Positions 18,731 to 21,296 of a stretch of DNA of 64,000 nucleotides are shown one piece after another (position 1 is the first letter of the stretch; every line of letters begins with the position of its first letter). The position numbers were made by a program, and so were the translations under genes. The notes under the pieces are model-generated. The model saw nothing but the letters and a program-made list of their open reading frames with translations. It was not told where the DNA came from and searched no databases. Location of the stretch: assembly GCA_030827315.1 (NCBI GenBank), contig JAURER010000001.1, positions 62,001 to 126,000 on the forward strand. The letters are read 5' to 3'. Source of the DNA: Gemmatimonadota bacterium (lineage in GTDB: Bacteria; Gemmatimonadota; Gemmatimonadetes; Longimicrobiales; Gaopeijiaceae).

Positions 18731-19183
18731 GTGACCAAGAGTTCGCCGTCCGCTCACGGCGTCACGCTGCGGTGTGGCTTCTGTGGCCAGCTCAACAGCG
18801 TGGACCTGAGCCGTGCGGCGCAACGTCCGACGTGCGGGGACTGCTCCAGGCCGATGCTGCTCGACCGTCCCGTGAAGGTCACCCAGGAGGACTTCGACCG
18901 GACCGTCCTCGCATCGGCGGCTCCCGTCCTCGTCGACTTCTACGCGGACTGGTGCGCGCCGTGCAAGATGGTGGCGCCGCTCCTCGACGAGATCGCGTAC
19001 CAGAAGATCGGGCGCATGCTCGTGGTGAAGGTCGACACCGACCACGCCCCGGACGTCTCCGTGCGGTACGGGATTCGCAGCATCCCCACGCTGATCCTGT
19101 TCAACGACGGGCAGGAGGTTGAGCGTAGCCTCGGCTTCGAGCCGGAACGCGTGCGCGGCCTCGTCGAACGCGTGCTCGCATGA
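18731..19183 (+). CDS. Thioredoxin 2-type protein with N-terminal zinc ribbon
   Basis: Cytoplasmic disulfide reductase of the TrxC type. From the GTG preceded by GGGAGGGAAGG the product is 150 residues. The first 45 hold two CxxC pairs (CGFCGQ and CGDC) that bind zinc in TrxC. The thioredoxin domain follows with the active site WCAPCK, cis-Pro in IRSIPTLILF and a typical C-terminal helix. The ORF-track start at 18644 would run through the upstream hairpin and is unlikely. It overlaps argR by ATGA, an unusual pairing. Confidence 0.9.
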   Translation: MTKSSPSAHGVTLRCGFCGQLNSVDLSRAAQRPTCGDCSRPMLLDRPVKVTQEDFDRTVLASAAPVLVDFYADWCAPCKMVAPLLDEIAYQKIGRMLVVKVDTDHAPDVSVRYGIRSIPTLILFNDGQEVERSLGFEPERVRGLVERVLA

Positions 19184-19635
19184 GCAAGCGCGATCGCCAC
19201 AAGCACATCGTCGAGGTGATCCGCAGCCACCGGGTCACGAGCCAGGAACTGCTGCGGGAGTTCCTTCTGGAGCGGGGCATCGAGGTCGCCCAGGCCACGC
19301 TGTCACGCGATATGCGCGAACTCCGGCTCGTGAAGGTCCCCGGCGCGGACGGGGTCGGCTTCTATTCGTCTCCGGAGGAATGGGACAGCACGCCTTCGCT
19401 CGAATCGCTGCTCCCGACGCTCTTCCACAGTGCGGAAGGGGTAGATCACCTTCTGGTCGTTCGCACGATGAAGGGCGGTGCGCAGACGGTGGCCGCCGGC
19501 ATCGACTGGGAAGAGTGGCCCGAAGTGCTCGGGACGCTCGCCGGGGACGATACGATCCTGATCATCCTGCGTGATCCGGTCTTCCTGCCTGAGGTCCAGG
19601 CACGTCTCGAATCGATGGCCGGGCATGACGGTTGA
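19180..19635 (+). CDS. argR: Arginine repressor
   Basis: Arginine-sensing transcriptional regulator, 151 residues. The N-terminal winged helix has the family block HIVEVIRSHRVTSQELLREFL and ATLSRDMRELRLVKV. The C-terminal hexamerisation and arginine-binding domain has GTLAGDDTILIILRDP, matching the usual GTIAGDDTI. It starts inside the trx stop (ATGA). An operator-like sequence lies 17 bases past its stop, ahead of argH, so it probably controls argH directly. Confidence 0.95.
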   Translation: MSKRDRHKHIVEVIRSHRVTSQELLREFLLERGIEVAQATLSRDMRELRLVKVPGADGVGFYSSPEEWDSTPSLESLLPTLFHSAEGVDHLLVVRTMKGGAQTVAAGIDWEEWPEVLGTLAGDDTILIILRDPVFLPEVQARLESMAGHDG

Positions 19636-19651
19636 CTGGATGCACTCTTAG

Positions 19652-19671
19652 TGAATATTTATGCTCATTCA
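19652..19671 (+). promoter_or_regulatory. Candidate ArgR operator (ARG box)
   Basis: TGAATATTTATGCT at 19652-19665 keeps the left half TGAAT and the AT-rich centre of the ARG-box consensus, and ATTCA at 19667-19671 supplies a right half in an overlapping register. It is one of the most AT-rich spots in the region and lies between argR and argH. The spacing is one or two bases from the E. coli palindrome, so the fit is imperfect. Confidence 0.4.
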
Positions 19672-19685
19672 TCGAATCAAATGAT

Positions 19686-19794
19686 CCGGTCCCGGCATCG
19701 AAAGGGAACCGGGGGCAGGATTTCGGGGCATTCGGCCCCCCGGCGCTTTGGCGGGAAGCTGTCGGTCTCCTGACCCCCGGTTCTCTTCTTTTTT
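19686..19794 (+). promoter_or_regulatory. Attenuator-like leader of argH with competing hairpins
   Basis: Two structures share the same bases. One is CCGGTCCC (19686-19693) with GGGAACCGG (19704-19712). The other is AACCGGGGGCAGG (19707-19719) with CCTGACCCCCGGTT (19769-19782), 13 pairs with one bulged A, followed by TCTTCTTTTTT ending at 19794. The second is a strong intrinsic terminator and encloses a small GGGGC/GCCCC hairpin. Only 50 bases separate the T-run from the argH ATG, so argH transcripts must either pass this terminator or start in that gap. It may simply terminate argR. Confidence 0.6.
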
Positions 19795-19844
19795 AGCCAC
19801 GACGCGGGCGCCGCAGCCCGGACGACCCTCCACGCTCCGTACGC

Positions 19845-21296
19845 ATGACTTCCGACACGACCAAGGACGCAGCCTCCCTGTGGGGAGGACGCTTCGAGGA
19901 GGGCATGGCATCGGAGATGGTGCCCCTCAATCTGAGCCTCGGCGTCGATCAGCGCCTGTGGCGTGAAGACGTGCGGGGGAGCGTCGCGTGGGCAAGGGCG
20001 ATCGGGGCGGCGGGCGTGCTTGCGGACGACGAGGTCGAGGCGATCCTGACTGGTCTGGGGAGGGTCGCGGACCGCATCGAGCGCGAGGGGCTCGCCTCCG
20101 CCACGGAAGAGGACATCCACTCGGTCGTCGAGCGGATGCTCCGGGAGGAAGCCGGCGACGTGGCGGGGAAACTCCATACGGGTCGCTCGCGCAACGACCA
20201 GTCCGCCACGGGGGTCAGACTCTACGGCATGGGTGCGGTCGACCGAGTCACCTCGCTCGTGCTCGACCTGTGCGACGCGCTGCACGGGCTTGCCCAGCGG
20301 GGCGCCGACGTGATGATGCCCGGATACACCCACATGCAGCAGGCCCAGCCGATACGGGCGGGGCAGTGGGCCCTGAGCCATCTCTTCCCCCTCCTGCGCG
20401 ACGTCGAGCGCCTTCGCGCGGCCCGGGCCGCGGCCGCGGTGCTTCCGCTCGGATCCGGCGCCATCGCGGGGTGCCCTTTCCCCATCGATCGCGAGGCGCT
20501 GCGGGCCGAGCTCGGCTTCGATCGCGTGAGCGAAAATTCGGTCGACTCGGTCTCGGACCGTGACTGGATCTGCGACGTCGCCTTCGCCGGTTCGATGATC
20601 GGCGTGCACCTCTCCCGGCTGGCCGAGGATCTCGTCCTCTTCTCGAGCGTCGAGTTCGGCTTCGTGCGTCTTTCCGACGGGTTCAGCACCGGGTCGAGCC
20701 TGATGCCGCAGAAGCGGAACCCCGACGTGGCCGAGCTGGCCCGCGGCAAGTCGGGGCGCCTGGTCGGAAACTTGATGTCGCTCCTCACCCTGTTGAAGGG
20801 GCTGCCGACGAGCTACAACCGGGATCTCCAGGAAGACAAGGAGCCGCTGTTCGACACGGTCGACACGCTCCAGCTGACGTTGCCCGCGATGCGCGGCGCG
20901 ATCGCGACCGCCCGTTTCCGTCCCGAGCGGATGTCTGCGGTCATGGATGCGCAGCTCCTCGCCACGGATCTCGCCGACTATCTCGTTCGGCGCGGCGTGC
21001 CGTTCCGGACGACGCACGAAGTGGTCGGGCGTCTCGTCCGTCGGGCGGAGCAGCGCGGCGTGCGCCTGTCCGAACTCACGCTCGACGACTTCAGGGCCGA
21101 GGACCCGAACTTCGCGAGCGACGTCTTTGAGGTCTTCGACTGGGAGGCCTCCGCCGACGCCCGTGACGCCGCGGGGGGGACGTCGGCACGCGCCGTGCGG
21201 ACCCAGCTCGCCGACGCGCACGCTCGCGTCGCGGAGGCCCGTGCTGGAACGCATTCCCCCTCCTCCGTACATTCGGGCACGGAATGGACTGTATGA
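19845..21296 (+). CDS. argH: Argininosuccinate lyase
   Basis: Last step of arginine synthesis, splitting argininosuccinate into arginine and fumarate. The 483-residue product shows SLWGGRFEEGM at the N-terminus, HTGRSRNDQ, the catalytic-loop signature GSSLMPQKRNPD, and the C-terminal helices of the fumarase/aspartase superfamily. It is about 20 residues longer than usual at the C-terminus. rpiA follows after 34 bases in the same direction. argG and other arg genes are not near. Expression is probably set by ArgR and the leader structure upstream. Confidence 0.96.
   Translation: MTSDTTKDAASLWGGRFEEGMASEMVPLNLSLGVDQRLWREDVRGSVAWARAIGAAGVLADDEVEAILTGLGRVADRIEREGLASATEEDIHSVVERMLREEAGDVAGKLHTGRSRNDQSATGVRLYGMGAVDRVTSLVLDLCDALHGLAQRGADVMMPGYTHMQQAQPIRAGQWALSHLFPLLRDVERLRAARAAAAVLPLGSGAIAGCPFPIDREALRAELGFDRVSENSVDSVSDRDWICDVAFAGSMIGVHLSRLAEDLVLFSSVEFGFVRLSDGFSTGSSLMPQKRNPDVAELARGKSGRLVGNLMSLLTLLKGLPTSYNRDLQEDKEPLFDTVDTLQLTLPAMRGAIATARFRPERMSAVMDAQLLATDLADYLVRRGVPFRTTHEVVGRLVRRAEQRGVRLSELTLDDFRAEDPNFASDVFEVFDWEASADARDAAGGTSARAVRTQLADAHARVAEARAGTHSPSSVHSGTEWTV

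Follow-up and report, generated by a model that had tools for sequence, protein, structure and literature searches.

A structured leader RNA ahead of argG and argH in one Gemmatimonadota family, with a candidate role in arginine control

Described systems and the argH leader

Purine riboswitches are three-way-junction transcription OFF switches, and PyrR-type attenuators are controlled by a protein. The RNA described here, which precedes the argininosuccinate lyase gene argH in a member of the Gemmatimonadota, resembles the former in having a P1–P2–P3 three-way junction beside a terminator decision; unlike them, it has no conserved junction core, its P1 is itself the terminator and, because the P2 loop is variable, kissing loops are absent. 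It shares with PyrR-type attenuators a conserved-loop hairpin in the leader of a biosynthetic operon, but no PyrR-type sequence was noticed, there is no conserved antiterminator, and the genes are those for arginine, not pyrimidine. Like T-box and leader-peptide attenuators, it is a leader terminator of amino-acid genes, and unlike them it has neither a T-box match nor a conserved leader peptide.

The HMP-PP riboswitch was discovered partly through the unusual conservation of a loop within a terminator (PMC6478431). As in that riboswitch (the thiS motif; PMC6478431), the stem of the terminator here encloses an abnormally conserved inner sequence, a single biosynthetic pathway is involved and there is no separate upstream aptamer; the sequence, the three-way-junction fold, the pathway and the phylum are all different, and no conserved alternative P1 or pseudoknot was found in the present element. 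The carA motif of the beta-proteobacteria, an extended imperfect hairpin before carA (PMC8632094), likewise precedes a gene of arginine/pyrimidine synthesis and is a candidate structured RNA; its described shape and its phylum are different. A 2022 review judged the claim of a fungal arginine riboswitch unsupported (PMC10043782), and the literature surveyed holds no established natural arginine riboswitch. Scanning the element against Rfam 15, T-box and HMP-PP included, gave no match at the gathering threshold, nor up to E = 5, and no description of this RNA was found in the open-access literature (subscription papers and supplements lay outside the search).

Fold and covariation of the element

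The window, i.e., the whole stretch of 64,000 nucleotides that was analysed, reads CCGGTCCC at 19686–19693, GGGAACCGG at 19704–19712, AACCGGGGGCAGG at 19707–19719 and CCTGACCCCCGGTT at 19769–19782, with all features given here on the forward strand. The initial annotation had paired the first two as an antiterminator stem and the last two as a terminator; all four sequences are present, and the two hairpins, which share 19707–19712, are indeed mutually exclusive. A terminator between promoter and argH was correctly recognised (fold z = −4.3, tail at 19783–19794, strong covariation in relatives), but it is not a simple hairpin: its interior folds into two further hairpins instead of a plain loop, and the terminator forms the outer stem of a more extensive conserved RNA. 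The folding energy of the 99 nt that begin at 19703 is −55.4 kcal/mol (z = −4.3), with 0 of 200 shuffles equally good, and the fold of 19702–19800 is a three-way junction of P1, P2, and P3. This conserved unit, which is the extent of our covariance model R1, is slightly displaced from the 19686–19794 first proposed. R1 scores 103 bits (E 1.9e-23) on its own genome, the window sequence being among its training sequences.

P1, the terminator stem (19703–19786, supported by fold and covariation), pairs arms 19703–19720 and 19768–19786 and is followed by the U-rich tail CUCUUCUUUUUU (19783–19794), the first bases of which are paired within P1. P2 (19725–19739, arms 19725–19729 and 19735–19739, from fold and alignment) is a plain hairpin with a variable loop, while P3 (19740–19765, arms 19740–19749 and 19755–19765, from covariation) carries the apical loop GGCGG (19750–19754), invariant in 50 of 50 members. 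The pair closing this loop is U-G, C-G or U-A, giving the consensus (U/C)GGCGG(G/A), found in all 50 while the surrounding stems vary. As a possible aptamer core there is thus a single invariant 5-nt loop, the junction strands being variable. A GC-rich stem with a U-run directly after it occurs in the window and in the complete members outside genera g41 and g11, where the T-rich tail is missing; judged by sequence, P1 is an intrinsic-terminator-like stem in most genera. A simple terminator scan, with its loop limit of 8, missed the element. P1 is largely rewritten in L035 and L216, both of which keep P3. The g41 form has neither P2 nor the U-run and retains P1 and P3, which for this reason are the core of the element.

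All three stems covary strongly. In the main alignment of 33 sequences, which was fitted to the model and therefore leans towards it, 94.6% of the pair cells are standard and 25 of 31 pairs show two-sided changes, where shuffles give 12.8 such pairs and slid controls no more than 10; P1 contributes 13 of 16 pairs and P3 7 of 10. A structure-free MAFFT alignment of the first eight sequences already has two-sided changes in 11 of 31 pairs. As a control for relatedness, changes were placed on a phylogeny built from the adjacent ArgR proteins of 27 members: coordinated standard-to-standard pair changes numbered 28, whereas 500 partner permutations averaged 1.8 and never exceeded 10. The secondary structure is thus backed by compensatory changes. 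A check of relatives for covariation in both overlapping hairpins had been suggested at the outset; covariation is strong in the terminator stem, and the first stem is not conserved.

Compensatory change in the stems also speaks against attenuation by a leader peptide at arginine codons, a reading prompted by the window ORF MIRSRHRKGTGGRISGHSAPRRFGGKLSVS, which runs through the element with 6 Arg codons in 30. That ORF has no Shine-Dalgarno sequence; its frame, start and peptide are not conserved, indels in the P2 loop shift the frame and stops occur in relatives. No leader ORF with both ATG and Shine-Dalgarno was found in any of 49 members, and we regard this mechanism as highly improbable. 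The initial view that the leader shows neither T-box nor leader peptide agrees with both the Rfam scan and this survey of leader ORFs.

Genomic setting and distribution

Upstream of the element lies argR, encoding the arginine repressor (19180–19635; Pfam Arg_repressor 2.1e-19, Arg_repressor_C 7.8e-20), whose stop codon is overlapped by a promoter-like TTGACT-16-AATATT (19632–19659; one found, 0.2 expected), from which a transcript would be expected to start near 19666. Over its −10 region lies the palindrome TGAATATTTATGCTCATTCA (19652–19671), which resembles ARG boxes and which, from its pattern, we take to be a putative ArgR site. Relatives carry TGCATATTTATGC or TGCATAATTATGC in its place, the ARG-box-like TGCATATTTATGC covering the −10 region in most members, so that on sequence pattern the promoter would belong to the ArgR regulon. 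A TTGACN promoter precedes the element in 49 of 49 members with enough upstream sequence, at a median distance of 45 nt.

Downstream, argH (19845–21296, ATG at 19845; Pfam Lyase_1 5e-64, ASL_C2 2.3e-26) is the predicted controlled gene. From the end of P1 to the start codon there are 21–113 nt (median 42) in the members where this can be read. Since the promoter is upstream and this gap is usually too short for another, transcription of argGH must in most members pass through the element. The next gene is argG in 38 members, argH in 8 and neither in 1 (genome G018), while three run off the contig; argG or argH is therefore downstream in 46 of 47 members with readable sequence, and the element has a consistent position 5′ of functionally related genes. 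In the G018 member (L223), the downstream ORFs have no Pfam matches and are accompanied by a ZnuA-like gene.

The usual partner gene, argG, is absent from the window's locus. Seven genomes in the window's genus have lost it from the argR-argGH locus, and the element now precedes argH there; another argG, about 50% identical, is found on contig C22 of the window's genome, with no element there. In the window, the locus without argG is at 19795–21296; a C-terminal remnant of argG persists in L022 (1226–1492), and L195 is listed in the same connection. The invariant P3 loop, the three-way junction, the ARG-box promoter and argG as usual partner had all been overlooked at first, and the original interpretation as a whole is partly supported, the case being stronger than first supposed for the terminator and weaker for the antiterminator: covariation, placement before argG or argH and the lack of an Rfam match bear out its proposal of an uncatalogued arginine-linked RNA element.

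Its position downstream of argR, its very strong fold and the commonness of terminator-like stems would also suit a terminator that is leaky and unregulated, or an insulator: in either case a strong stem without a sensor, lowering argGH expression or stopping readthrough from argR. The ARG-box promoter, however, lies between argR and the element, g41 retains the structure without the U-run, and the loop does not vary across 14 genera, even with P1 rewritten in L035 and L216, whereas an ordinary terminator loop is free to vary. We consider such an insulator improbable.

The four genomes of genus g4 (L037, L038, L041, and L167) contain no ArgR above the cut-off, an absence that is weak from any one genome, at 73–90% completeness, and credible from all four. 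The element precedes argG in three of them; the contig of the fourth starts at argG. No obvious ARG box was seen at the g4 argG promoters. The RNA is kept here without ArgR and is therefore not merely an ArgR accessory; on gene content, ArgR is excluded as its general partner. ArgR/ARG-box regulation would act on the same operon through the ARG-box promoter, with the RNA as a separate layer that is retained in ArgR-less g4. Loss of ArgR with retention of the RNA in one genus is a natural experiment on protein versus RNA control of one operon.

A DNA search of 58 related genomes matched the leader in seven others sharing the element, each with argR upstream. The resulting eight-sequence alignment gives a single three-way junction, which each of the eight sequences also adopts when folded singly, with P2 shortened in L003. 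At E ≤ 0.001, R1 detected one copy of the element in each of 32 genomes out of the 121 of the family, including all 14 from the window's genus; among 298 genomes sampled evenly across the phylum, it gave no credible match outside the family. The broader model R3 added genus g41 and one genome each from g11 and g44. In its final form the set comprises 50 members from 14 genera, with a single copy per genome and all within one Gemmatimonadota family, and L168 (genus g10), recognised by eye, is a further likely member. A GTDB pattern scan returned at least 119 stretches; among the 80 listed, only Gemmatimonadota contigs exceed 25 bits with model R2.

Model matches L043, L198, L199, L200, and L217 were rejected, the structure being broken or no arg gene lying downstream. 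The lookalike at L200 659–747 (G016, contig C1) has a TTGGCGGGA hairpin and a terminator-like tail and scores 33 bits with R3; it lies near a tRNA 3′ end fragment, there is no arg gene in the stretch and the resemblance is probably due to chance. In genus g57, the argG leaders L169 and L194 have an ARG-box promoter and a different GC-rich leader in which the element is absent.

A signal at P3 and its possible outputs

Our best reading is of a new cis-regulatory RNA family, narrowly distributed and tied to argGH. We put at roughly one in two the chance that 19702–19800 belongs to a new family of structured leader RNAs that controls argG-argH by a terminator answering to a signal at P3. By analogy, an invariant loop within a terminator suggests a sensing role, and hence a regulated terminator, because the P3 loop is invariant although terminator loops need not be. 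The RNA is probably a terminator-embedded sensor of an arginine-pathway signal, a reading favoured by the element having stayed before argH where argG has left.

In the proposed mechanism, the transcript would begin near 19666, at the promoter controlled by ArgR, and the element would present RNA polymerase with a second decision. P3, with its GGCGG loop, would fold first and serve as recognition site, with P1 as output. The signal that recognises P3 would be linked to the final steps of the arginine pathway; a small molecule (arginine, citrulline or argininosuccinate) is the most likely candidate, and a protein is less likely. Binding would decide whether the flanking P1 strands close: a closed P1 with its U-run would lead to termination, an open P1 to reading of argH. 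Plentiful arginine would probably switch the operon OFF, the RNA acting as a second brake, at the RNA level, in addition to ArgR. The small size and clear definition of the RNA, and its link to two enzymes, make candidate ligands directly testable. In its most ambitious form, which we advance tentatively, the RNA may be the first natural class of riboswitch in bacteria that responds to arginine or to its direct precursors citrulline and argininosuccinate, with a terminator-embedded aptamer acting beside ArgR in most genera and alone in the ArgR-less genus.

For an aptamer, a loop of five nucleotides is small, and g41 does without P2, so that a protein-binding hairpin fits as well. P3 with GGCGG might bind an RNA-binding protein other than ArgR, perhaps ArgH itself in autoregulation, and the bound protein would either stabilise or block the terminator. 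Short hairpins whose 5-nt loop is invariant within a variable stem are typical protein sites, confinement to one bacterial family could reflect a lineage-specific one, and argH is the next gene after the element, or the one after argG, wherever the contig extends far enough, one genome excepted. Against this stand the persistence of the RNA in g4 without ArgR, which removes that candidate, and the departure of argG from some loci, where autoregulation by ArgG is unlikely. A P3-binding protein is a serious alternative, even if we judge the full account somewhat unlikely. Pairing of the GGCGG loop in trans with complements in the flanks occurs in 9 members against 8.8 expected. Where further copies of the P3 loop sequence were sought elsewhere in the genome, counts of the short pattern are about those of the reversed-pattern control.

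For the sensor reading, too, termination would not be universal, as the U-run is absent in g41 and in one g11 genome. There, in g41, the same recognition hairpin may act on translation or mRNA stability, and this form hints that a single hairpin of this kind can be switched from termination to a different output or back. The form without P2 and U-run comprises L170, L172, L173, and L202–L214 (g41) and L215 (g11).

Pairings upstream of the terminator stem

The first hairpin of the window (19686–19712, 19686–19693 with 19704–19712) is a possible anti-P1 in this genome by sequence and fold, and is not conserved. It had been taken for an antiterminator that competes with the terminator. The overlap of the two hairpins is real, the upstream one is predicted before the 3′ arm of P1 emerges (while that arm is missing, a longer variant starts near 19684), and there is a weak enrichment in g41, where upstream anti-P1 pairing reaches p < 0.05 in 5 of 17 members. 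Pairing of CCGGTCCC with GGGAACCGG is, however, near chance in the window (p = 0.06 and 0.08 against shuffles in two tests) and absent from most relatives: upstream pairing is significant in 8 of 50 members, a weak enrichment overall, and in 3 of the 33 outside g41, with no common sequence or position. No conserved antiterminator or alternative fold was found across the members, and a conserved role for this hairpin seems quite unlikely.

A 4-bp pairing of CGGG in the loop with CCCG in P1 could form in most members; it shows no covariation and is lost in L035 and L216, and we do not claim a loop–P1 pseudoknot.

Separately, some members of the g41/g11 form have an upstream hairpin that competes with P1 (GACCCG/CGGGTC, CCGGGC/GCCCGG), with hints of covariation.
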